DNA of 64,000 nt. Origin: Stigmatella aurantiaca DW4/3-1. GTDB taxonomy: Bacteria; Myxococcota; Myxococcia; Myxococcales; Myxococcaceae. Made by a program: the position numbers and the translations under genes. The notes under the pieces are model-generated. The model was not told the origin of the DNA. It saw only the letters and a list, made by a program, of their open reading frames with translations, and did no database searches. The stretch is from NCBI RefSeq assembly GCF_000165485.1, contig NC_014623.1, positions 8,884,893-8,948,892 on the forward strand, read 5' to 3'. Positions 7,198 through 56,311 of this stretch are shown here, piece after piece. Each line of letters begins with the position of its first letter. Position 1 is the stretch's first letter.

Positions 7198-9498
7198 CTA
7201 GTCCACGCGGGAGGCGCTGAAGATGCGCTGCGCCTTCTGGTCGCCGGAGGCGGGGACGACCGAGAACGTGCGCTCCACGGCTTGCAGCCCCTGAGACGTC
7301 TTGGGGGCCAGCTCCAGCAGCAGCGCACCAAAAGCCTTCAGGTGGAAGGACAGGCGCCAGAACTCCTCGAGTTCATCGAAGACCTTCTCGAGAATGCTGG
7401 GGTCGCGCCCCTGCAAGAGGGCATCGCGAAGCAGGGCCATGCCAGCCACCATGCGCTGCCACCGCACGTAGGTGCCGCCGTACGAGGAGCCAATGTCCGC
7501 GTGCCGCGCGTTCTTGTCGAGCACATCGGCGAACGTGTTGGGATGCCCGGTGCCCCGGCCCTCCCAGTACGCCACCTCCCCCGCCTTGCCCTTCGCGATG
7601 GGGTTTCGCTTGAGCCAGTCCGCGGCCAGCGCGGCGGCGGACGCGGGGGTCCAGCCCTTCGCCTTGGCCAGCAGATAGGTCTTCCACAGGGGGGCATAGA
7701 GCTCCTGGCGGAACTCGGGCTCGACGCGCGCCCGGGTGGTGTTCCAGGGCATGACGCGGCCCAGGGCCCGCGCGAAGGGATCCGCGTCCCCCGCCGCCAC
7801 CTGCGGGATGAGCTCGCGCATCAGCGCATCCGTGAACTTGAGCTCCAGCCGCAGCTCTACCTCCTGGCCCTGGATCGCCGCTTGGATGTCCTTGAAGACC
7901 GTCTCCTCGTCGGCATCATCGAAGACCCGCCAGGTGATGGCCTCGTCCAGCGCCTGGCGCAGCTCATCGGACGAGGGCTTCCCCGAGCGGGCGATCTGGA
8001 AGTAGAGCCCGTACTGGAAGTCCTGGACCGTGGGCTGGATGCGGAACGCCTCCATGTCGCACTTGAAGTCGATGGACCAGCGGCCCTTGGTGCCAAAGAG
8101 GCTTCCCTCGTAGCCGCGCACCCCCAGGTAGGCGATGCGCTGCGGGCCATGCAGGGTATCGGGGGAGCCGTACTGCACCACGCGCTGGAGCTTCTTCTGG
8201 TCCCGGCTCTGGAGCTGCCACTTCGAGAAGCCCAGGGTGAAGCCCCACGCCTCCCGCCGCGTCTCCGAGTTCTGGTGGAAGTAGCTGCGCAGCGCGCCCG
8301 GCTCCACCTTCTTCAGCACGTCCGACATCTTGCCCAGCATCAGCAGGGAGTGGAGCTGGCGCACCTGGGCGTCGGGCAGCTCCATGCGCAGCAGGGTCTG
8401 CTGCTCGGACAGGCGGGAGTACTCGTACTGGAACCCCACCGTGAGCTTCTCCGCGGCCATCTGGGAGATGATCTCCCGGGCCTTGGCCTTGCGGTCCTCC
8501 CACGCCTGCTTGATGGCGGACGCGTCGGTCTCGTATTCCTCCATCCCGAGCCGGTCCAGCACCCAGCGCAGCAGGTCCTTCTCCGTGTCGTTGAGGTTGA
8601 GGGGTTGAGAGGCCAGCTTGTCCACCAGCTTCTCGAACTGGGCCACGCCGGGAGCGCCCACGAGCGCGTCCACGACCGCCCCGAACACCTCCGGGTTCGC
8701 CGCCTCCACCGTGACGCCCACCTCGGCGGCCAGCCGGGCCTCGCGGGCGGCGCCCTTCTGCACGGAGACGACCAGGAACCCTTCCTTCTCGCGCGAGAAG
8801 GTGAGCAGGAAGTCATCCGAGACGGTGACAGAGCCCGTCACCGAAGCCCCCGCCGACGTCTTGAGGCTCAGGAGCGTCCCCGCGGGCAGCAGACGGCTCA
8901 AGGCGCTGAGCTGGCTGGTGAAGACGTCGGACCACTTCAACGACATCGACGTCTCCATCCGGAGCCGGGCCTGGAACGCCAGCGCCTCCCGCGGCCGGAG
9001 CTTCAAGACGTGGTCGGTGACGAACGGCAACCGCAAGGCCTTGGTATCCGCCAGGAAGGCATCCCGGGCCTTTCGGTCCAGCGGGTGCAGGTGGTAGTCG
9101 GCCACGAGCACGGACACATCGCCGCCCACGCCGATGGACAGGAAGGGCATGCTCGTGCCGGACTGTGCCTTGACGCGGGTGCGCGCCGCATACTTCAGCC
9201 ACGCATCGTCCGGGCCCAGCACCAGCGGAGGGCTCAGCCGGGAGGCGTCCTCCTGCTCCTTCGTGGCGGCCTCGCCGATGACGCCCTCGGCGTCCACGTC
9301 CCCAGGCGAGTTGAAGGCCTCGATGGCGACCTCCACGCCCACATCGAGCACGAAGGAAAGCCCCTCGAAACCCAGGCTCAGGGGCTGCTCCACCCGGGCC
9401 GAGGCCAGGTTGAGGCGGATCTGCGAGTCCTTGAGCTGTGCGTCCGAGACGAGATCCTTCAGCTCATCCAGCTTGGCCAGCTTCCACTCGAAAGGCAC
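7198..9498 (-). CDS. Hypothetical protein, 766 residues, no recognised domain
   Basis: I do not recognise this protein. It starts at a GTG with GAGG seven bases upstream, has no signal peptide or membrane segment, and is rich in charged residues, so it should be cytoplasmic. The sequence alternates beta-strand-like stretches (LSLGFEGLSFVLDVGVEVAIEAF, residues about 40-62) with helical ones, and the repeated use of aromatic-rich strands suggests several beta-sandwich or barrel units. It follows the ROK kinase by 96 bases on the same strand and converges with LysR, 13 bases apart. Codon use is normal for the genome, so it is a real gene. Function open. Confidence 0.75.
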   Translation of the reverse strand: MPFEWKLAKLDELKDLVSDAQLKDSQIRLNLASARVEQPLSLGFEGLSFVLDVGVEVAIEAFNSPGDVDAEGVIGEAATKEQEDASRLSPPLVLGPDDAWLKYAARTRVKAQSGTSMPFLSIGVGGDVSVLVADYHLHPLDRKARDAFLADTKALRLPFVTDHVLKLRPREALAFQARLRMETSMSLKWSDVFTSQLSALSRLLPAGTLLSLKTSAGASVTGSVTVSDDFLLTFSREKEGFLVVSVQKGAAREARLAAEVGVTVEAANPEVFGAVVDALVGAPGVAQFEKLVDKLASQPLNLNDTEKDLLRWVLDRLGMEEYETDASAIKQAWEDRKAKAREIISQMAAEKLTVGFQYEYSRLSEQQTLLRMELPDAQVRQLHSLLMLGKMSDVLKKVEPGALRSYFHQNSETRREAWGFTLGFSKWQLQSRDQKKLQRVVQYGSPDTLHGPQRIAYLGVRGYEGSLFGTKGRWSIDFKCDMEAFRIQPTVQDFQYGLYFQIARSGKPSSDELRQALDEAITWRVFDDADEETVFKDIQAAIQGQEVELRLELKFTDALMRELIPQVAAGDADPFARALGRVMPWNTTRARVEPEFRQELYAPLWKTYLLAKAKGWTPASAAALAADWLKRNPIAKGKAGEVAYWEGRGTGHPNTFADVLDKNARHADIGSSYGGTYVRWQRMVAGMALLRDALLQGRDPSILEKVFDELEEFWRLSFHLKAFGALLLELAPKTSQGLQAVERTFSVVPASGDQKAQRIFSASRVD

Positions 9499-28512: not shown

Positions 28513-29998
28513 GCCCGGACGGCACCACGAGCCGCTCGATCCCACCGAACAGCGCGCTGACGGCCAGCGCCATCAGCGCGGCGGGCACGGCGCCTTCCAG
28601 GATGAGCCCCGTGTCATCCAGCCGGATGCCCGTGAGGATGGGCTGCCCGTAGCCCCCCGCCCCGATGAGCGCCCCGAGCGTCGCCGTCCCCACGTTGATG
28701 ACGGCGGCCGTCTGGATGCCCGCCAGAAGCGACGGAGCGGCCAGGGGCAATTCGATGCGCCACAGCCGCGCCCGGGGCGGCAGCCCCAGGGCCTCCGCGG
28801 ACTCGCGCAGATCCCCGGCGATCCCCGAGAGCCCCGCCGCGGTGTTGCGGACGATGGGCAGCAATCCATACAGGAACAGCGCCATGATGGCGGGCCGCGT
28901 TCCGATGCCCAGCAGCGGAATCATGAACACCAGGAGCGCCAGCGAGGGCACCGTCTGGATGATGCTCGCCAGCCCCAACACGAGCCGTCCCAGGCGCGCC
29001 CGCCTCGCCGCGAGCACGCCCAGCGGCACGGCCACCAGGACCGAGGCCACGAGGGACACGGTCACGAGAAACAGGTGCTCCCGCGTCCTGCGCCCGATCC
29101 GGGAGACCGGCCCCTCGGCCCGGACCTCCCCCTCCACGCTCAGGTTGCGCGCGAGGAACTCCGCGGCGACGCGGGTCTCGGGAACATGTTCGAGCCGGGC
29201 GCGCGCGTTGAGCGTCACCATTTCCTGTTCGGAGAGCTGCCCCTCCAGCCGCGACAGGGACGCGAGCACGCCGGGCGCACGCACGGCCCACGCCTCCCGG
29301 TAGAGCAGGACGGCGTCATAGGTGGGAAAATGCTTCAGATCGTCCTCCAGCACGCGCAGGCCATACGCGGCGATCTCCGCGTCGGTGGAGTACAGGTCCG
29401 TCACCTGGAGGGCCCCGCTCTGGAGCGCCCGGTAGGCGAGATCATGGTCCAGCCCCCGCACCTCGCGCTGGGGAAGCTGGTAGCGCTCCCGCAGGGCGGG
29501 CCAACCATCCGCGCGGTCCATGAACTCATTGCTGAGCCCCAGCCGCAGCTCGGGATGGCGCCGCAGATCCGAGATGCGCCGAACCCCCAGGCGCTCGGCC
29601 TCGGACTCCTTCATTCCCAGGGCATAGGTGTTGTTGAAGCCCAGCGGCGCGCTCATGCGGAGGCCCTCCGCCGCCAGTGCCTCTCTCAGGGCGGCATCGT
29701 CCCGGAGCGCCCGGCCCGCGAACAGTTCCTGGCGCAAGGTCCCCGTGTATTCCGGATACACGTCCAGCTCGCCCCGGCGCAGCGCTTCCCAGAGAACGGC
29801 CGTGCCCCCCAGCTCGCGCCGGTGCACGGCACGAGCGCCCGCATCCCGGGCCAGCCGCGTCACCATCTCTCCGATGATCACCGACTCGGTGAACTTCTTG
29901 GAGCCCACCCGCACCTGGGCCTCTCCCGCGGGCGGCGCGGAAACACACGCCCCCCACCAGGGGCTCAACAGCAACAGACACAGCCCCAGGCCCCTCAC
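28466..29998 (-). CDS. Glycine betaine/choline-type ABC transporter, fused binding protein-permease
   Basis: 510 residues. After a signal (MRGLGLCLLLLSPWWGAC) comes an OpuAC/ProX-like binding domain, residues about 25-290: VRVGSKKFTESVIIGEM, LDVYPEYTGTL and LSNEFMDRADGWP. A permease domain with five or six helices follows (EHLFLVTVSLVASVLVAVPLGVLAARR, ALGLPPRARLWRIELPLAAPSLLAG, the EAA loop). Such fusions serve OpuC/OsmU-type uptake of compatible solutes. It is coupled to the ATPase gene by a 4-base ATGA overlap. The C-terminal 17 residues are an extension overlapping the P450 gene. Confidence 0.92.
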   Translation of the reverse strand: MRGLGLCLLLLSPWWGACVSAPPAGEAQVRVGSKKFTESVIIGEMVTRLARDAGARAVHRRELGGTAVLWEALRRGELDVYPEYTGTLRQELFAGRALRDDAALREALAAEGLRMSAPLGFNNTYALGMKESEAERLGVRRISDLRRHPELRLGLSNEFMDRADGWPALRERYQLPQREVRGLDHDLAYRALQSGALQVTDLYSTDAEIAAYGLRVLEDDLKHFPTYDAVLLYREAWAVRAPGVLASLSRLEGQLSEQEMVTLNARARLEHVPETRVAAEFLARNLSVEGEVRAEGPVSRIGRRTREHLFLVTVSLVASVLVAVPLGVLAARRARLGRLVLGLASIIQTVPSLALLVFMIPLLGIGTRPAIMALFLYGLLPIVRNTAAGLSGIAGDLRESAEALGLPPRARLWRIELPLAAPSLLAGIQTAAVINVGTATLGALIGAGGYGQPILTGIRLDDTGLILEGAVPAALMALAVSALFGGIERLVVPSGLRPTGSGQASSRGRW

Positions 29999-30783
29999 CG
30001 CTGCGCCCGGATGAAGCGGGTCACGAACGGATCCGCGGGGTGTGACTCCAACGTGTCCAGGAGCCCCTGCTGGACCACCCGGCCCTCCCGCAGCAGCACG
30101 ATGTGGTTCCCCAGGAACGCCGCCTCCGCCAGGTCATGCGTGACGAGCACCACCGTCTTCCCCAACCTCTCGAAAATGGCCTTCAGGTCTGCTTGCAGCT
30201 CGGCGCGAACCATCGGGTCCAGCGCCCCCAGCGGCTCATCCAGCAACAGCCCCTCTGGCTCCAACATCAATGCCCGCATGAGCCCGACCCGCTGACGCTG
30301 TCCCCCGGAGAGCTGCGAGGGATACCGCCCCAGTGCGCTGGAGGGGAAACGCGTCAGCTCCACGAGCACGTCCAGCCGCTCGCGCACCCGCCGCGCGGGC
30401 CACTTCAGGTGCTGGGCCACGAGGGTGACGTTCTTCTCCGCGGTGAGATGGGGAAAGAGCCCGCCTCCTTGGAGCGCGTAGCCCAGGCGCCGGCGCACCG
30501 CCAACAACGCCCCCTCCTCCCGCGGCAGCAACTGGCCTTCGAAGAGCACCTGCCCGGTATCGGGACGAATCAGGCCATTCATCAGCCGCAGCAGGGTGGA
30601 CTTGCCGCACCCGCTCGGGCCGATCAGGACGGTGGTGTGCCCTGGCGCCAGCCTCAGGTCCACCGGGTGCAATGCCTGCGTCGCGCCGAAGCGCTTGGAG
30701 ATGCCGATCAGCTCGAACAAGGTCGGGCCGAAGATACGCGGACAGGACGAGGACGCCCCCTTCAAATGGGGCGCCCTGTCCAC
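29995..30783 (-). CDS. Osmoprotectant-type ABC transporter ATP-binding protein
   Basis: 262 residues. Walker A GPSGCGKST, Q-loop, signature LSGGQRQRVG, Walker B GLLLDEPLGALD and H-loop VLVTHDLAEA are all present. It resembles OpuCA/ProV but lacks their C-terminal CBS domains, which suggests that ionic-strength sensing is absent or elsewhere. It energises the fused binding protein-permease encoded next. The start is a GTG with GGAAG seven bases before; a TTG at about residue 22 would also open the conserved domain. Confidence 0.9.
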   Translation of the reverse strand: MDRAPHLKGASSSCPRIFGPTLFELIGISKRFGATQALHPVDLRLAPGHTTVLIGPSGCGKSTLLRLMNGLIRPDTGQVLFEGQLLPREEGALLAVRRRLGYALQGGGLFPHLTAEKNVTLVAQHLKWPARRVRERLDVLVELTRFPSSALGRYPSQLSGGQRQRVGLMRALMLEPEGLLLDEPLGALDPMVRAELQADLKAIFERLGKTVVLVTHDLAEAAFLGNHIVLLREGRVVQQGLLDTLESHPADPFVTRFIRAQR

Positions 30784-36370: not shown

Positions 36371-36528
36371 GCTCGGGACACAGAAGGGGACAAGCAAGGA
36401 CCGTCCAGCGGGTCTTCTCGCCCATCACATCCCGCGCCTGCCCTCTCCTTCCGGATGTGGACCTGAAGCGGGCAACGGGCGTGGTGCCCGTGCAATCCCC
36501 CGGCGAGCAGGCCACACGGAGGCCAGTA

Positions 36529-36726
36529 ATGAAAACGAAGGCAAAGAACCAGGCGCAGCAAGGTGGCAAGCAACCCTTCTTCGCACGTCTGCTCGAGGCG
36601 CAGGAGCTCGGCCAGGCCGCGGGCGGCTCTCAGGTCATCACCACGAAGAAGTTTCCCTCGGACTCGGACGAGGTGATGGTCACCCTGAAGTTCCCCTCGG
36701 ACAGCGACGAAGGATGCGCTCGCTAA
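36529..36726 (+). CDS. mdnA: Microviridin-type graspetide precursor peptide with two cores
   Basis: 65 residues from the ATG at 36529, with GGAGG six bases upstream. Residues 16-26 (PFFARLLEAQE) match the PFFARxLE helix by which microviridin leaders bind their ATP-grasp ligases. The tail holds two core motifs of the TxKxPSD(x)nE class: T39-x-K41-F-P43-S44-D45 with S46 D47 E48, and T52-L-K54-F-P56-S57-D58 with S59 D60 E61. They are 13 residues apart. Each could give a tricyclic depsipeptide with Thr/Ser-to-Asp/Glu esters and a Lys amide. The last four residues are GCAR. Two ligase genes follow directly. Microviridins are usually serine-protease inhibitors. Confidence 0.92.
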   Translation: MKTKAKNQAQQGGKQPFFARLLEAQELGQAAGGSQVITTKKFPSDSDEVMVTLKFPSDSDEGCAR

Positions 36727-36749
36727 GTCCCGCTGCCGGAACCTCTCCC

Positions 36750-37799
36750 ATGCCCTCAGCCCGCGGCAGCGTCCTGCTTCTCACCCACAGCCGGGACCAC
36801 TACACGGTCGACCGGGTGGCGCAGGCGCTGTCGCGGCTGGGGGCGCGGCCGGTGCGCATCGACACGGACGGCTTCCCCTCGGTCCTGACGCTGACCTCGC
36901 GGATGGGACCGGCCGGCAGCGACGTGTCCTTGCGCACGGCCACGGGAAAGCGGCGAAGCCAGGACATCCGGGCGGTCTGGCTGCGGCGGCTCGCTCCGCC
37001 CCGGCTGGATGAAGCGCTGGAGCCTGTCTGGCGCGAGGGGTGCTTCCGTGAATCCCACGCGGCGCTCGAGGGGTTTCTCGATGGGTTGGAGGCCGCGGGC
37101 TGCCGCTTCATCAACCCCCTCGCCGCCGAGCAGACCGCCTCCAACAAGCTGCATCAGCTTCGACAGGCCCAGGCGCTGGGGCTGGAGATCCCCCGGACCC
37201 TGGTCACCAATGATGCGGGCCAGGTGCGCGCCTTCTTCGAAGAGGTGCGAGGCCGGATGGTGGCCAAGATGCTGACCCCCCTCAGCCAGTCCATGGAAGG
37301 GGGACATCCCTTCGTGTACACGAGCGCGGTGGGCCCCCAACAGCTCGAACAGCTCGAGGGGCTCCGTCACAGCCCCATGGTGTTCCAGGAGCGGATCGAC
37401 AAGGTCCGCGAGCTGCGGGTGGCCGTGGTGGGTCCGCACTGCTTCGTGGGCGCCATCGACGCCTCGCGCTCCGTGACAGGCCAGGTGGACTGGAGACGGG
37501 CCCGTCCTGGAGAGTGCCACTGGGAACCCGGCGACGTTTCCCCCGCGGTGGCCGCGCGCCTGGTGCGGCTGGTGGCGCAGCTGGGGCTGGTGTACGGCGC
37601 CGTGGATCTCATCGTCACCCCCGAGGGGCGGCACGTCTTCCTCGAAGTGAACCCTGGGGGTGAGTGGGGAATGCTCGAGCGGGAGCTCGGCCTGCCCATC
37701 TCAGAGGCCCTCGCCGAGGCCCTCGTCACCGGGGACCGCGTGCCCCCTTCCTCCTTCCGGAGCTCTCATGACCGTCCTCATCGTGACCCATTCCCATGA
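36750..37799 (+). CDS. mdnB: Graspetide ATP-grasp ligase 1 (MdnB/MvdC-like)
   Basis: 349 residues from the ATG at 36750, 23 bases after the precursor. The start SVLLLTHSRDHYTVDRVAQALSRLGARPVRIDTD and the later VWLRRLAPPRLDE, NKLHQLRQAQALGLEIPRTLVTND, KMLTPL, FQERIDKVRELRVAVVG and VTPEGRHVFLEVNPGGEW are the microviridin ATP-grasp pattern. ATP is used to activate Asp/Glu side chains of the precursor. I assign it the MdnB (lactam-forming) role because the second gene resembles MdnC more closely; the order precursor-B-C matches Microcystis. Which ligase makes esters and which the amide is inferred. Confidence 0.88.
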   Translation: MPSARGSVLLLTHSRDHYTVDRVAQALSRLGARPVRIDTDGFPSVLTLTSRMGPAGSDVSLRTATGKRRSQDIRAVWLRRLAPPRLDEALEPVWREGCFRESHAALEGFLDGLEAAGCRFINPLAAEQTASNKLHQLRQAQALGLEIPRTLVTNDAGQVRAFFEEVRGRMVAKMLTPLSQSMEGGHPFVYTSAVGPQQLEQLEGLRHSPMVFQERIDKVRELRVAVVGPHCFVGAIDASRSVTGQVDWRRARPGECHWEPGDVSPAVAARLVRLVAQLGLVYGAVDLIVTPEGRHVFLEVNPGGEWGMLERELGLPISEALAEALVTGDRVPPSSFRSSHDRPHRDPFP

Positions 37800-38769
37800 C
37801 AACACGGCGCCCAGGGACGTCGCCCACGCCGTGGCGGCTCGCGGCCAGCGGGCTTACCGGTTCGACACCGACCTGTTCCCCACCCACCTGAGGCTCACGC
37901 TCGACGAGCGGGGAGAGGGGCATCTCTCCGGGCCGGAAGGGGTGCTCGACCTGGCGGAGGTGACCTCGGTCTGGTACCGCCGCAATGGCACCGGGACGCG
38001 CATCCCCCGGGAGATGGCGCCCCAGCTCCGCCAGCCCTCCGTGGAGGAGAGCCGACGCGTCGTGTCCGGGATGCTCGCGGCGCGCAGGGTGTTTCAGCTG
38101 GATGCGCTCGAGGAGGTGCGGCGCGCGGAGCACAAGCCGCTGCAACTCGAGCTGGCGGGCACCTTGGGCCTGGAAGTGCCCCGCACGCTGACCACCAATG
38201 ATCCCGAAGCGGTGCGGGCCTTCGCCGCGAGCTGCCCCGGGGGCGTGGTGACGAAGATGATGACCTCCTTTGCCGTCTACGGCGAGCGGGGCGAGGAGCA
38301 GGTGGTGTTCACCACGCCCCTGCACCCCGAGGACCTGGAGAACCTGGAGGGGCTGGACCTGTGCCCGATGACCTTCCAGGAGCGCATCGCCAAGGCGATG
38401 GAGCTGCGGGTCACGGTGGTGGGGGAGCAGGTCATGGCGGCCTCCATCGACTCGCAGGCCCTGCCGAGGGCTCGCGAGGACTGGCGCCGCGAGGGGGTCA
38501 CCCTCGCGGGCGCCTGGCAGCCCTACCTGCTGCCCGAGTCCATCCGGACGCGGGTGCTCCGGCTGATGGACCTGCTCCGGCTCAATTATGGCGCGATCGA
38601 CTTCATCGTCACGCCCGAGGGCAGGCATGTCTTCCTGGAGGTGAACCCATCCGGGGAGTTCCTGTGGCTGACCCACTCCCCCGGCATGCCCATCACCGAT
38701 GCCCTGGCGGATGTGCTGACTGGGCGCTCGGCACGCAGGCGGGGCCACGGATCCTCGCAGGCGGGATAA
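37768..38769 (+). CDS. mdnC: Graspetide ATP-grasp ligase 2 (MdnC/MvdD-like)
   Basis: 333 residues from the ATG at 37768 (CGGAG site), overlapping the first ligase by 32 bases. Hallmarks of the MdnC/MvdD branch are the start TVLIVTHSHDN, RFDTDLFPT, the SVWYRR motif, the KMMTSFAVYGERGEEQVVFTTPL stretch, LDLCPMTFQERI and NYGAIDFIVTPEGRHVFLEVNPSGEFLWL. The last gives the metal/ATP residues of the grasp fold. MdnC makes the ester (lactone) links that precede lactam formation. Neither a GNAT acetyltransferase nor an ABC exporter follows, unlike cyanobacterial clusters. Confidence 0.9.
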   Translation: MTVLIVTHSHDNTAPRDVAHAVAARGQRAYRFDTDLFPTHLRLTLDERGEGHLSGPEGVLDLAEVTSVWYRRNGTGTRIPREMAPQLRQPSVEESRRVVSGMLAARRVFQLDALEEVRRAEHKPLQLELAGTLGLEVPRTLTTNDPEAVRAFAASCPGGVVTKMMTSFAVYGERGEEQVVFTTPLHPEDLENLEGLDLCPMTFQERIAKAMELRVTVVGEQVMAASIDSQALPRAREDWRREGVTLAGAWQPYLLPESIRTRVLRLMDLLRLNYGAIDFIVTPEGRHVFLEVNPSGEFLWLTHSPGMPITDALADVLTGRSARRRGHGSSQAG

Positions 38770-50281: not shown

Positions 50282-53200
50282 TCACCTCCTGACCGCGTTC
50301 CATCCAATCTGACCTGCTTCCTCCGCCGAGCACTGACTCGCCTGAGTGCTCACCCCACAGTAGCTGGGCGTATCAAGCGTCTTCAACGATACCTGATGGG
50401 ACAGTTCGTGCATGACCGTCTCGGCCAGTTGGCGCTTCTGGGTTCCGGGAGGACCTGCTGGAGGCAGGTCAAAAAGCGTTTCACGGCAGAGCGTCGTTTC
50501 TTGGACATACCAATTTGTATACGCTTTGACATCCCTCGCTTTGCACCACCAATCACTCTTGGGCGCGTGAATTCTGTACTCGTCATCGTTGGCAAGTGGG
50601 TCCTCGCCAAAGCAGGCCATGAACCAATCGTGCACCGCCTGGCTAGACCTCAAATCCCAGAGAACATCCTGAAGAATATTCCACCAGTCGTTGCGGTCGG
50701 CAGTCCCGACCACGCGCCGTCCGTCAGGGTCCGTAAAGTGAAGCGGGTTGTTGAGTCCGTACGCGTACGCATATACCCCGGCCCCCTCTTGCGTTTGGCC
50801 CTTGACCCACTTCGGATCCGCCAAGAGCGGCTCCGGCTGCAGATACCTGCCAATGCTTGGATCGTAGTACCGGTTCCAGTTCTCAAGGAGGTCCGTCTCC
50901 TCATCATGATACTGGCCCGGGAAGCGCAGCGGCGTCCAGAACGGCTGGGCTCCTGTCTGAAACCGCCGATACTCGTAGCCCGCCACGGTCACACCTTCGT
51001 AGTTGCACGTCATGGTGCAATCCAGCGTTCCATTCGCCCCCGGGCAGCAGTTCCCCGCGTTGGAGTTGAAGTGTACCGCGACGCGGCCATTCGACGGCTG
51101 CATCCACGCCGACCAGAAGGGCGCGTTCGAGCGGCCTCCGATAGGCCCCCCCACGGGGGTATTCGTGCTGTCCATCTTGACTTGGGCATAATCCACAGGC
51201 CCGCTGGCCGAGGCCTCTGTATCGACCATCCCGAACAGCACCCTCATCCGGACAACCGTATTGGGCAGTGACGAGGTTGCAGGAGTCCCTCCCACGGGCT
51301 GAGAAAACGCAACAATCGAGGCGTTCACCTGATTGTGTCCGTAGGAACTGCTTCCACTCGGATGAGCCGTCTCCTTGATGGACCCAAACCGGTTGATCTG
51401 CCCGAAACCGTTGTAGTCCGCGATGCCTGCCACCTTGCGCGAGGCATCCAGCATCAGCACAGGCTTGCCCACGTGGTCGGTGATGGGGAAATAGACACCG
51501 CAGGCCGCACTCTCCCCATTCCTCGCGCAATCGCTCGAAGCATCCGGCTCACGAACCCATCCCGTGCTGAACCGGCCGCGAATGAGGCTCACGGGCCGCC
51601 CTCCCAACCAGATGTAATCATCCTCGACGTAGAACCCAGCGGAGGGAATGATGGCGTTATTCCCTTGATCAGTGAGCAGTTGGTGGCTTGAGTCATAGAA
51701 AAACTCATCCATGGCTCCAGATGGGTATACCTTGAGGCGCCTCCGGCCGAGCGCATCATAGAAGTAGTTGTAACTCACTCCCCCTACGGACACTGCTTTG
51801 AACACAGAATCCGTCGCCACGGACTCATTGGGTCCATAGGCGAACTCGAGCCAACTGTGAGCCGCCGATTCCGACTTGAGTCTATTCTTCCGCTTCTCGA
51901 CAGCTCTGCCATCCGCGTCATAGACAAACTCAGCCTCTGTCCCCGGATAGTTCCTGACATTCCAGGACAGCAACCGGTCCATACCTGGCGAAGGCGCGTA
52001 AACAAAATCTGAGTTCCCATTGCCATCCGAAATGAAATTGGTTCGATTGCCGCGGAAATCATAATCGAACCCCTGAGAGCTGAGAGCCCCCTGAGCCGAG
52101 CTCGGCGTCACGCTGAGCAACTGAATATCCCTGCCGTAAGAGTAGTTCACCTTTCGGGCAAGGCCTGTCGCTCCCAGGAGGCACGTGTAATCAGCGGCAA
52201 CGTGCCCAGCCTTCCACCAATAAGACCGATGGAAAATATCCCCCGGGCCTGCACCAAGCGCCAAGGCACCACTCGAAACGCGCAGGCTGCGCAACCTGCC
52301 CGAAAAGTCACTTGAGGCGGTTGACGGCGGGGCCACGGGACAAGAAGACAATCCGGTTGCGGATGACGCGTCATCCCCCAGGGCGTATTCGACCGAACTC
52401 ACATTGGAAGCCCCTGGGTGATGGAGTTGGTACCCTCGCAACCCTGAATAGGGCTCCCACGCCACACCGCTCAAGAGACGCTCCACCCGCCATGACGCCC
52501 CATCGTACAGGCTCACGTCAACGGCACTGATCCTATCGGCCGCGGCACCCGAGGCATACACATAGGTCACCGTGCGCCCATGAGGATAGACGATCTGGGC
52601 GAGGCCCCCATTGGGCGTATAGGAATACGCCGTATGGGGCGTGCTCTGGAGCCCCCCACCGCAGGCCACCGTTCCCGCGCGCAGACGAATCTCTCCCACC
52701 AGCCGCCCCACTTCATCGTACTGGAACCAGGTGCGCCCGAATGAGTCGTCTCTGAAACGCAGCCGGCCTCGCGTATGGAGCGGCTGCGGGCAGGAGCTGT
52801 CAGGGGACTCGTCCTGACCATACCCCAGACGGTACAACACCTGCTGTCCCGGCGTCGGGGATGTGTATTTCCTGGAGGCCGACCGCATCCGGCCCATCGA
52901 ATCGTAGGCATAAGCGAGGTGCTCACCCCTCAGACGCATCTCCTGCGTCTCACGAACGATGACCTCCCCACGGGCGCCGTAGGCGTAACGAACGGGGCCT
53001 TCCGTATCGGGGAGTTGCACTTCCACCACCTGCCCGAAGTCGTCATGGACGTACACATTGGCTGGCATGGCGCAGCTTTGACACGCCGTGTTTCCCGGGC
53101 AGCCTTGTTTGATGCTCGCCACGTTTCCCTGACCGTCATACGTCACGCAGGTCCGGTTGCGGCCAGAATAGGAAGGCCCATCCGCCTGAATGAGCCGGTT

Positions 53201-56200
53201 CGCCCGATCGTACAGGAAGGAAGAGCAAGCGCTCGATGCCGCAGTCCCTGCCGGGTTGGGCCCTCCGCACCAAGCGGAAGGGGCGTGGAAAGGGTCTCCC
53301 AGCCCGATCAAGTTGTCCGCTCCGTCAAAAAGACGGACCGACGCATTGGAGGACCATGACGAAGCACCTGCTGGCTTCTCACCTTCTTGGCTCCAAGCGG
53401 GCCTTTGATGCGCATCGGCGGCGAACTTGACCACCCGCCGGGTCTCCGCTCCGGCAGCACCCCAGCTCAGATACCGCTCTTCCTTCACCGTCCCGTCAGC
53501 CCAGTAGGCGTATGCCACTTTCTCGGTCCATACCGCGCCATCGGCCGATGCGGCCTTGGCCTTCCATTGCAGTTGCTCAGAGGGCTCCCCCCCGGTGCAT
53601 GCCTGCGTTGGCGTCGCTTTGCGGTAGCAGAAGACCTCGTGGTTTCCCTCCGGATGCCGGATCCAGCTGAGCCGACCCTGGTCGTACCCGTACGAGGTGG
53701 GGGGCTGCGAACCCACCGTCCTCGTCAGCAGGCGCTGTTCCTGATAGGCCGCTTGCGTGACGACGCCATTGGCATCGACGCTCGATGTCACATTGCCCCA
53801 CGCATCGTACTCCTGGAACGTGGTGACATCCGGTGCCGCCGCCAATGAGGCGTAGACGGAGACCGACTTCAAGCGGTTGCGCCGTGGACCCGTCTCTGTC
53901 TCGGGCCAATAGTGGTACTGAGTCAGCGGGTACTCGCCCGGAAGGCAATCGGTCGCCTGTCCATTCGCGACGAAGCAGGGGCCATGGGCTTCCAGAGTGC
54001 GGTTGAACGGGTCCGGCGCTGTTTCGCCCAAAGCCACCCGGGACGTGAAGAAGAACGTGCCGGCGAAACGATGCTCCACCGTCCAGGAGCCGTTCTCCTG
54101 ACGGACGCGTGTCCAGCCCGATTGGATGACGGCCTTCTTCCGTGTGGTTCCTGGCTCGTAGAGGGAGGATGTCTTGGTGCGCTCGCCCACTGGGCCCAGA
54201 ACAGTTTCCCGCTCCTGGGTGGCCAGGAGCTGCTCTCCATGAGGGCCATAGGTGTAGGTAAAGAACTCGGTCTCCAGCGCTCCCGCGCCGTTCTTGTCCG
54301 TCGCGCCCTTCTGGTTCGACGTCATTTCCAGGGGCGAGCGCACCATTCCGTTCTCCTGGGCATACCCGTACACTTCCCAGTTGTTGCGCTTGTCCTTGCG
54401 TGCCTGCTCATACCCCGGTGAGTTCCCTGTCGAGCACGCCCATTCATGCTGCACGGTGCCTGCCGAGCAGGCGTAGTTGTACGCACCGCAGCTGTCCGTG
54501 GTCCTGTACAGGCGGGGCTCCAGCGTCTGTCCAAAGTTCGAGAGGGTCTCGAAGGAGCGTGTGAGGTGGACCGCCACTTCGGAACCATCGCCTCGCCCAC
54601 TTTGCGTGTTCGTGGCCGTGCGCTTCGACGGAAGGGCACCGCAGCAGTTGGAGCCCGGTTGGCATGCCGTCACCAACACCTCCGGCTCGAAGTGCCACGC
54701 CTCGCCCCCTCCTTGAGCCAGCGAGACCTGTCCGTTCACACCGTACTCGTGGCGCACGATGCGGCCGCGGCTCGACGATTGCTGGTAGGCGCCCGCCAGG
54801 TACTCATAGGTTTCCGAGCGGTCTGCCCACGCAGCGGAAGCGAGGCGTCCTGGACGATCCTCGCCTCCTTGCGTCGCATACGCGTAGGTGACGACCGGGA
54901 CGGAGGATGTCCCCGATTCCTGGGGCACCCGGAGGGAAACGCCGCCCAGGACGCACTCGACCTGGCCTCCGGCTTTTTCCAGGGCGCGATAGCTCAGCAG
55001 GAGGTGCGAATCCGGACTGACGATCTCCGCGAGATACGGTACCCCACTGCCCCCCCCCGCAGCGCCCACCGGGCACCGGCTGTCTCCGGGCGGTGCGTAG
55101 TGCAGCGTCTCGACCGTGCCTCCCGAGGGCGAGAGAATCCGGCTGAGAAAGTAGCGATCGACTCCGCCCGAACCTGGGGCAAAGGGTGCCTCGAAGAGAA
55201 GCTGCTCGCCCGTGGCGGTCACCAGAATGAAACCGGACGCCGTCCGAGACAGACGCTCTGGAATGCTCTTGTTTCCATATCCGGGGCTCGCCTGGCACGC
55301 CGTTCCCGCACACGCTTCGAAACGAAGAAGCCGTCCCTCTCGATCCCGGACGCTCCAGCGGCCCCCTTTCATCACCACGACGCTCAGGTGATTGTGCCAC
55401 CACTCGACGCTGTCCGCTTGAGCAGGACTCGACCCAAAGGGCTTGGGCGCGCCCGCGAGCGGCCCATCATGGAGCCACTCCAAAGGATTTGAACTGTAGT
55501 TTCGGATGAACTGAAGCGGCGCCACCGTGCCAGGAATACTGACATCCACCACCCGCTCCAAGCTGTTGCCTTGAGCGGTATTGACAGGGTCTCCCGCGGC
55601 GATCGGATTGCAACTGCACTCCTCGCCACGGCAGGAGATGGGCGTTCCCCCTTCTGGCTCAACGAATGGGCAGTCTTCGTCCACCTGTCCGTCACAGTTC
55701 TCGTCGATCCCGTTGTTGCACGTCTCCGGATACTCGCCCGGCATGGGCGCCCCCACGCAGCGCGTGCCCATCTCCGGCGAGCAGAACCCGCCCCCAGAGG
55801 GAAAAGAGATGTCCGGATGGTCGTTCTTGAAGACGCACGTTCCCCCTTGTGAGCACAGCCCAGGGCCATTCGCACACGGCGATGGCTGGGAGCCTCCTTT
55901 GACCTCACAGGGAAAGCCAGCGTTGCCCGGACACGAAGTAGCGGCCCCCATGGTCACTTCACCCGGTTCCGTGTTCGCGCACGAAAATCCCGAGTAGCAA
56001 CACTGGTAGTTCCCTGCTGGCGCGTCCTTGCCAATGGCTTGCAATTGGCAGGATTGACCGCTCCCGCAGCAGGACATCTGACAGGACGCATCTCCTCCAC
56101 AGGAGCAAATCACCTCGCGGACACCCATACAGAAGGAAATGCGGCCGCAGGCCTCTGGGAGCGCCGTGCCAGCAACAGGTGCCGCCGATGGCAGCGAACA

Positions 56201-56311
56201 CACCTGTGCCTCTGCTTTCTCCAGAGGGGCCATCCAGAGGCTGAACACCGCCAACACCTGCCACAACGAGCGTGGCCCTACCATTCGCAAGGTCATTCGG
56301 GAACTCGGCAT
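50282..56311 (-). CDS. Secreted RHS repeat protein with C-terminal zinc-metalloprotease-like tip
   Basis: 2009 residues. A Sec signal (SLWQVLAVFSLWMAPLEKAEA) is followed by a Cys-rich N-terminal region and a MopE-type motif (ETCNNGIDENCDGQVDEDC). A DUF6531-like start of the RHS shell (DPVNTAQGNSLERVVDVSIPG) leads to many YD repeats (YDRANRLIQADG, YDGQGNVASI, YDFRGNRTNF). The RHS core ends RYYDPSIGRYLQPEPLL ... YAYGLNNPLHFTDPDG. The 145-residue tip (1865-2009) has H1968-E1969-x-x-H1972 (HELSH) and D1980 in LDTPSYCG, resembling the aspzincin (M35) GTxDxxYG ligand loop. Probably a toxin delivered by secretion; start codon uncertain. Confidence 0.9.
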   Translation of the reverse strand: MPSSRMTLRMVGPRSLWQVLAVFSLWMAPLEKAEAQVCSLPSAAPVAGTALPEACGRISFCMGVREVICSCGGDASCQMSCCGSGQSCQLQAIGKDAPAGNYQCCYSGFSCANTEPGEVTMGAATSCPGNAGFPCEVKGGSQPSPCANGPGLCSQGGTCVFKNDHPDISFPSGGGFCSPEMGTRCVGAPMPGEYPETCNNGIDENCDGQVDEDCPFVEPEGGTPISCRGEECSCNPIAAGDPVNTAQGNSLERVVDVSIPGTVAPLQFIRNYSSNPLEWLHDGPLAGAPKPFGSSPAQADSVEWWHNHLSVVVMKGGRWSVRDREGRLLRFEACAGTACQASPGYGNKSIPERLSRTASGFILVTATGEQLLFEAPFAPGSGGVDRYFLSRILSPSGGTVETLHYAPPGDSRCPVGAAGGGSGVPYLAEIVSPDSHLLLSYRALEKAGGQVECVLGGVSLRVPQESGTSSVPVVTYAYATQGGEDRPGRLASAAWADRSETYEYLAGAYQQSSSRGRIVRHEYGVNGQVSLAQGGGEAWHFEPEVLVTACQPGSNCCGALPSKRTATNTQSGRGDGSEVAVHLTRSFETLSNFGQTLEPRLYRTTDSCGAYNYACSAGTVQHEWACSTGNSPGYEQARKDKRNNWEVYGYAQENGMVRSPLEMTSNQKGATDKNGAGALETEFFTYTYGPHGEQLLATQERETVLGPVGERTKTSSLYEPGTTRKKAVIQSGWTRVRQENGSWTVEHRFAGTFFFTSRVALGETAPDPFNRTLEAHGPCFVANGQATDCLPGEYPLTQYHYWPETETGPRRNRLKSVSVYASLAAAPDVTTFQEYDAWGNVTSSVDANGVVTQAAYQEQRLLTRTVGSQPPTSYGYDQGRLSWIRHPEGNHEVFCYRKATPTQACTGGEPSEQLQWKAKAASADGAVWTEKVAYAYWADGTVKEERYLSWGAAGAETRRVVKFAADAHQRPAWSQEGEKPAGASSWSSNASVRLFDGADNLIGLGDPFHAPSAWCGGPNPAGTAASSACSSFLYDRANRLIQADGPSYSGRNRTCVTYDGQGNVASIKQGCPGNTACQSCAMPANVYVHDDFGQVVEVQLPDTEGPVRYAYGARGEVIVRETQEMRLRGEHLAYAYDSMGRMRSASRKYTSPTPGQQVLYRLGYGQDESPDSSCPQPLHTRGRLRFRDDSFGRTWFQYDEVGRLVGEIRLRAGTVACGGGLQSTPHTAYSYTPNGGLAQIVYPHGRTVTYVYASGAAADRISAVDVSLYDGASWRVERLLSGVAWEPYSGLRGYQLHHPGASNVSSVEYALGDDASSATGLSSCPVAPPSTASSDFSGRLRSLRVSSGALALGAGPGDIFHRSYWWKAGHVAADYTCLLGATGLARKVNYSYGRDIQLLSVTPSSAQGALSSQGFDYDFRGNRTNFISDGNGNSDFVYAPSPGMDRLLSWNVRNYPGTEAEFVYDADGRAVEKRKNRLKSESAAHSWLEFAYGPNESVATDSVFKAVSVGGVSYNYFYDALGRRRLKVYPSGAMDEFFYDSSHQLLTDQGNNAIIPSAGFYVEDDYIWLGGRPVSLIRGRFSTGWVREPDASSDCARNGESAACGVYFPITDHVGKPVLMLDASRKVAGIADYNGFGQINRFGSIKETAHPSGSSSYGHNQVNASIVAFSQPVGGTPATSSLPNTVVRMRVLFGMVDTEASASGPVDYAQVKMDSTNTPVGGPIGGRSNAPFWSAWMQPSNGRVAVHFNSNAGNCCPGANGTLDCTMTCNYEGVTVAGYEYRRFQTGAQPFWTPLRFPGQYHDEETDLLENWNRYYDPSIGRYLQPEPLLADPKWVKGQTQEGAGVYAYAYGLNNPLHFTDPDGRRVVGTADRNDWWNILQDVLWDLRSSQAVHDWFMACFGEDPLANDDEYRIHAPKSDWWCKARDVKAYTNWYVQETTLCRETLFDLPPAGPPGTQKRQLAETVMHELSHQVSLKTLDTPSYCGVSTQASQCSAEEAGQIGWNAVRR

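Follow-up and report, generated by a model that had tools for sequence, protein, structure and literature searches.

A compact two-core microviridin operon in Stigmatella aurantiaca DW4/3-1 and the variation among its relatives

Microviridins, described chiefly from cyanobacteria, potently inhibit serine proteases; class I members commonly carry Trp at position 11. Their cores follow the motif TX1KYPSDX2D/EE/D (PMC5934393), and cross-linking is divided between two enzymes, MvdD installing the lactones and MvdC the Lys-Glu lactam (PMC13039773), with the leader helix described as docking the ligases (PMC8939145). Class I members (microviridins B, J and L of cyanobacteria) are reviewed as having one core, mostly no double glycine, and an acetyltransferase in some clusters (PMC13039773; PMC7823629). 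Class II precursors are characterized by a double glycine (PMC13039773) and up to five cores (PMC13039773; PMC7823629). In the Anabaena PCC 7120 system AMdnA/AMdnB/AMdnC, one leader precedes several TxKxPSDxx(D/E) cores, and an MdnB-type ligase accompanies AMdnC, an MdnC-type ligase that forms up to two lactones per core (PMC5934393). Similar clusters of the same family are named in Archangium, Cystobacter and Sorangium, where the parts of the source that list them give the antiSMASH type 'microviridin' only, without precursor analysis (PMC12766979). Here we analyze such a cluster in a 64,000-nucleotide stretch of Stigmatella aurantiaca DW4/3-1 (NC_014623.1, positions 8,884,893 to 8,948,892; hereafter the window). 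We interpret it as a minimal operon for a class II microviridin, a member of the known group 1 graspetide family.

The precursor open reading frame (ORF) starts 6 bases downstream of its ribosome-binding site and encodes one leader and two cores (Table 1). NCBIfam model NF033738 matched residues 16–61 at 46.8 bits (cut-off 26), and Pfam Inhibitor_I10 matched at 31.8 bits (cut-off 21). PFFARLLE is a PFFARFL-type helix as in microviridin leaders, AAGG at residues 30–33 places a double glycine ahead of the cores, and two segments, beginning at residues 39 and 52, fit TxK(Y/F)PSDx(D/E)(E/D). We rejected a chance origin of the motif, as six-frame translation of the window gave two matches to T.K[FYW]PSD.[DE][DE], against none in 200 mononucleotide shuffles of the same sequence. 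The window thus shares its leader helix, core motif and pair of ligase types with class I but differs in its double glycine, in having several cores behind one leader and, relative to some class I clusters, in showing no acetyltransferase among the neighboring ORFs scanned. Position 11 is Ser in both cores, versus Trp in several of the single-core rows. Compared with Anabaena PCC 7120, the precursor has two cores rather than the three of AMdnA, the MdnC belongs to a separate myxobacterial clade, and no transporter was found beside the cluster. The two cores are identical at 9 of 10 residues but at only 22 of 30 bases. Codons differ for 4 of the 9 residues in common, a pattern that points to an old duplication whose copies selection has kept alike.

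Downstream lie two ATP-grasp ligase genes, the first scoring best against TIGR04185 (MvdC, MdnB type) and closest among solved structures to 7m4s (AMdnB), the second scoring best against TIGR04184 (MvdD, MdnC type) and closest to 5ig9. We take 5ig9 to be MdnC and 5ig8 to be MdnB, the database entries for both reading 'ATP grasp ligase'. An in-frame ATG is available to the first ligase upstream at 36714, but homologues begin at the position matching 36750. Best family model, solved homologue and trees concur on one ligase of each type. The scores themselves are a point against the assignment, both ligases remaining under the NCBIfam equivalog cut-offs (390.5 of 425 bits and 437 of 475 bits); over the 96 family genomes, no MvdD-type match exceeded its cut-off. 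A preliminary description of the window, made from the letters alone, had proposed a microviridin-type cluster with a 65-residue precursor carrying a PFFARxLE leader and two cores 13 residues apart, followed by two ATP-grasp ligases in mdnA-B-C order. Translation of 36529–36726 bore out the precursor, and the best TIGR04185 and TIGR04184 scores bore out the ligases and their order. Profile searches of the kind it proposed gave MvdC/MvdD best matches for the ligases, below the equivalog cut-offs, and NF033738 above its cut-off for the precursor; together with the solved homologues and the tree, which put both enzymes among microviridin ligases rather than outside the graspetide clade, they support the family assignment.

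With 23 bases separating the precursor from the first ligase gene and a 32-base overlap between the ligase genes, the three genes, in the order A-B-C, look like one operon. The nearest relative, G036 (locus L041), shares ~13 kb at 91% DNA identity; against it, dN/dS is 0.27 for the precursor (on 13 changes), 0.28 for MdnB and 0.17 for MdnC, values that indicate purifying selection on all three genes. A decaying or silent remnant would have a precedent in L049, where, at 7767–8380, an intact precursor stands beside MdnC gene fragments in what its sequence indicates is a cluster with a decayed ligase. A promoter/terminator scan yielded nothing useful: it detected no sigma-70-like promoter on the + strand, a result of little weight in myxobacteria. 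Such decay is very improbable here, given three intact genes with dN/dS of 0.17–0.28 against G036 and ligases that align with solved enzymes over almost their full length. We consider it highly probable that this is a two-core microviridin operon in which both ligases act on both cores.

Table 1. Coordinates of the operon in the window and of notable precursors in relatives (L numbers denote loci, with positions within each locus).
Feature	Position	Strand	Evidence
GGAGG ribosome-binding site of the precursor gene	36518..36522	+	sequence
65-aa precursor of the mdnA type, leader plus two cores	36529..36726	+	NF033738, Inhibitor_I10, dN/dS 0.27
Leader helix PFFARLLE, residues 16-23	36574..36597	+	sequence; ligase-docking function as described in PMC8939145
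Double glycine, residues 32-33, predicted leader cleavage site	36622..36627	+	sequence
Core 1, TKKFPSDSDE; P1 (position 5) Lys; predicted trypsin-like target	36643..36672	+	sequence; P1 rule as reviewed in PMC7823629
Core 2, TLKFPSDSDE; P1 Leu; predicted elastase/subtilisin-like target	36682..36711	+	sequence; P1 rule as reviewed in PMC7823629
MdnB/MvdC-type ATP-grasp ligase, 349 aa, predicted lactam former	36750..37799	+	TIGR04185 390.5 bits; 7m4s (AMdnB) E 1.3e-86
MdnC/MvdD-type ATP-grasp ligase, 333 aa, predicted lactone former	37768..38769	+	TIGR04184 437 bits; 5ig9 E 5.6e-100; trees
Long precursors, 8-16 cores	L059:9103-10476; L038:7817-9061; L046:14697-15842; L048; L069:8246-9718; L152:6002-7081; L057:5411-6385		
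Unlinked two-core precursors	L032, L037, L040, L042, L049, L050, L051, L052, L053, L058		

In the proposed pathway, the leader helix would dock onto both ligases. In each core, the MdnC-type ligase would join Thr4 to Asp10 and then Ser9 to Asp12 through side-chain esters, while an amide between Lys6 and Glu13 would be made by the MdnB-type ligase, giving six water losses over the two cores; Ser9-Asp12 and Lys6-Glu13 are our assumed second and third cross-link pairings. The assignment of the lactam was compared with the occurrence of MdnB across 110 loci, of which 93 were used; the 17 dropped comprised 10 with cores but no MdnC match above the limit (in L046 because the contig stops there) and 7 with MdnC but no recognized cores. 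Lys6 was present in 257 of 264 cores where MdnB was nearby (81 loci), versus 14 of 42 where it was not (12 loci), counts in which cores of one locus and related loci are not independent. Speaking against a strict link, the 12 loci without a nearby MdnB are heterogeneous: Lys6 was absent from L057, L118, L152 and L153, mixed in L095, L120, L126 and L136, and present in every core of L083, L116, L125 and L130. A search for a distant MdnB covered three myxobacterial genomes of the 12 (G010, G011 and G087, holding L152, L057 and L153) and found none in these assemblies, the sole TIGR04185 match being MdnC itself. None of their 22 cores kept Lys6, position 6 being Arg or Ala in all of them. Because no MdnB was found and position 6 is Arg or Ala, these three clusters probably make lactone-only peptides, and the comparison adds a genetic argument for the MdnB–Lys6 lactam. 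Since the window has both MdnB and Lys6 in each core, a complete tricyclic set (two lactones and one lactam) is expected on both.

Leader removal behind the double glycine would leave a single peptide of 32 residues, its two cages separated by three residues, with a predicted mass of 3408.61 Da once six waters are lost. The same losses would take the whole precursor from 6999.50 Da in linear form to 6891.43 Da. As the linker between the cores, VMV, contains no double glycine or other recognized cleavage motif, we lean slightly toward this single, uncut product. Alternatively, cleavage between the cores would yield two separate microviridins, each with one cage and its own target. A review considers how class II precursors might give rise to individual microviridins (PMC7823629), and some relatives (L037, L043) have longer linkers. 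Cleavage at a linker as short as VMV would, however, require a further protease, and linkers of only two residues recur in L032, L033, L044 and L047; we regard separate release as unlikely.

The two cores differ at position 5, the P1 residue. According to a review, inhibition by microviridin L was raised by Arg at this position for trypsin, by Leu for elastase and by Met for subtilisin; for microviridin J, variants with Arg or Lys showed activity against both trypsin and subtilisin (PMC7823629). With Lys in core 1 and Leu in core 2, the window product is likely a small double-caged peptide with two protease-blocking heads, and would act as a double-headed serine-protease inhibitor directed by Lys at trypsin-like and by Leu at elastase/subtilisin-like targets. 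Exactly one basic P1 was found in 16 of the 24 two-core precursors, 14 times in core 1 and twice, in swapped order, in core 2 (L049, L056); none had two. In pooled shuffles of these 24, the absence of double-basic pairs had P 0.022 and the bias to one core P 0.0003 (two-sided). Several points count against reading this as selection for a pair: the remaining 8 of 24 lack any basic P1, P1 pairing is not independent across relatives, and when near copies were collapsed by hand (17 left) the absence of double-basic pairs weakened to P 0.087, the core 1 bias holding at P 0.0012 (one-sided). One-sided placement of the basic residue is therefore firmer than the avoidance of a double-basic pair. Myxobacteria are not alone in mixing P1 types: basic and non-basic residues occur together in 47 of 53 multi-core cyanobacterial precursors (from the best 80 of 193 loci). 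Our fuller suggestion, that the product is a natural bispecific inhibitor, that the basic/non-basic pair has been selected in many myxobacterial relatives, and that some ligases serve unlinked precursors in trans, so that a dispersed set of inhibitors is matured by one ligase pair, is a tentative one.

The preliminary description had also noted that the cluster lacks an acetyltransferase and an ABC exporter. A Pfam scan of 20 neighboring window ORFs (4 without a match; the 2009-residue ORF at 50282–56311 was among those left out) agrees, detecting no acetyltransferase, C39 peptidase or peptide exporter; the lone ABC set was of the glycine-betaine uptake type. A C39-peptidase transporter in the cluster, a frequent but not obligatory class II feature, is therefore not seen among these ORFs. 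Genome-wide, the only C39 domain found lies at C1:3955772, on a C39-ABC transporter with two HlyD-type neighbors. Leader cleavage behind the double glycine, and export of the product, would most plausibly fall to this distant (PCAT) transporter, a step to which we give a little better than even chances. A C39 domain occurs in every one of the 15 family genomes carrying short precursors; of the 7 whose precursors are long and multi-core, G087 has one and the other 6 lack any at E up to 1e-10. Two facts argue the other way: the transporter, at ~3.95 Mb, and the cluster lie about 5 Mb apart, and a C39 domain is a common feature, present in 64 of the 96 family genomes. The link to this cluster is consequently weak, and the co-occurrence with short precursors only suggestive. 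We set aside the C39 transporters that lie 9–14 kb from a precursor in G004, G007 and G032; their possible partner in the first two genomes is a further, distant ATP-grasp gene in the same stretch.

The same observations bear on a different possibility, that the peptide is a leader-attached or intracellular protease regulator that is not exported, in which case the absence of an exporter from the cluster would be meaningful. In its favor, the scan of 20 flanking ORFs detected no exporter, relatives have ten precursors situated away from ligases, and fully modified microviridin B precursor that retained its leader inhibited elastase at a low nanomolar half-maximal inhibitory concentration (IC50) (PMC11672978); by analogy, leader removal may not even be needed. 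In contrast, the double glycine is retained in 24 of 27 short family precursors (counted by eye), in genomes that all carry a C39 domain. ATP-grasp loci, moreover, are described as not typically encoding a C39 peptidase (PMC8939145), so a distant C39 is no argument for an intracellular product. We judge a non-exported regulator quite unlikely.

The precursor family is present in 20 of 96 family genomes, and in 5 of 7 from the window's own genus; the wider phylum sample, which takes in those 20, brings the count to 22 of 195. A viral collection contained no relative. At E up to 1e-90, 22 of the 96 family genomes together hold 24 strong MdnC orthologues. By eye, a precursor directly adjoins 22 of the 24, so that the family assignment is not contradicted by orthologous ligases lacking a conserved precursor. 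One exception, G092, has its locus divided by contig ends. In the other, G006, no precursor was recognized beside the only strong ligase pair; the sole one detected is 9.35 Mb away on a single contig (~3.3 Mb if circular). Among the 27 short family precursors, 24 have two cores, 2 have three and 1 has one. Two-core precursors also occur in Sorangium, Nannocystis and a Blastocatellia bacterium, and a single core in a Pyrinomonadaceae locus. In 69 cyanobacterial loci from the best 80 of 193, precursors with one, two, three, four and five cores numbered 22, 13, 30, 7 and 3, by a pattern script that may miss odd cores. Two cores with no exporter or acetyltransferase alongside look like the rule in relatives rather than a peculiarity of this cluster. 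In Nannocystis pusilla (L076:5800-7000), a two-core precursor is followed by a second short peptide with a PFFARDLE leader and a double glycine; no recognizable core was found in it.

Maximum-likelihood trees placed the enzymes in context. The first comprised 52 rows (46 MdnC and 6 MdnB) from 61 chosen loci, 15 of which have no row in it (10 without a full MdnC, plus L070, L077, L085, L107 and L128). A fuller tree of 59 rows (53 MdnC and 6 MdnB) adds those five and L152 and L153; most of the best 80 of 193 loci are outside both. In the fuller tree, MdnC rows stand apart from MdnB rows (100/100), and the window MdnC pairs with that of G036 (100/100); both belong to a myxobacterial clade of 21 rows (95/98) that also takes in Sorangium and Nannocystis. 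Cyanobacterial MdnC forms a 21-row clade (100/98) beside the myxobacterial one, not enclosing it, an arrangement that speaks against recent acquisition from cyanobacteria. The many-core loci fall in a second myxobacterial clade, one of eight rows (100/100), and L070 is a lone long branch. The grouping of all myxobacterial MdnC in the first tree (85/83) disappeared in the fuller one, and we dropped it.

Precursors associated with the eight-row clade combine an extended N-terminal region with numerous cores: 16 in L059, 13 in L038, 12 in L046, 12 in L048 (at a contig end and open), 10 in L069, 9 in L152, 8 in L057 and 5 in L153. Linkers in the 8–16-core precursors are mostly Gly- or Pro-rich, and the long N-terminal regions gave no Pfam match in the four scanned. 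An incomplete literature check of titles and abstract openings found none on precursors with 8–16 cores. A further departure concerns ten precursors, in eight genomes whose ligase pair is elsewhere, that lack an intact ligase in the ~8 kb to either side; this arrangement suggests modification in trans. The genomes without MdnB, the ligase-free precursors and the 8–16-core precursors are more novel than the window cluster itself.

Beyond the ligases, no conserved neighbor emerged. Clustering of ORFs from 39 loci recovered the ligase group in 30 of them and the next groups in 9 and 8, the group of nine being ABC ATPases as judged by its window member (29995–30783); besides the ligases, nothing recurs across the 39 loci. 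Near six microviridin loci from two genera (L039, L043, L045, L054, L055 and L061) are genes that we take to be ThiF/E1-type-like, some presumably with ubiquitin-like and JAB-like neighbors. Elsewhere in the window, a spore photoproduct lyase family protein (PF20903; 26065–27168) adjoins a cytochrome P450 (27295–28512).

These findings place an intact, compact microviridin cluster of three genes in a myxobacterium whose genome is a single contig, and whose relatives commonly share the two-core precursor. As a small, testable operon, it may serve the study of bispecific inhibitors. The cluster itself is of moderate interest; its main interest is the variation among its relatives, where the comparison points to far larger precursors and to others that are seemingly modified in trans.

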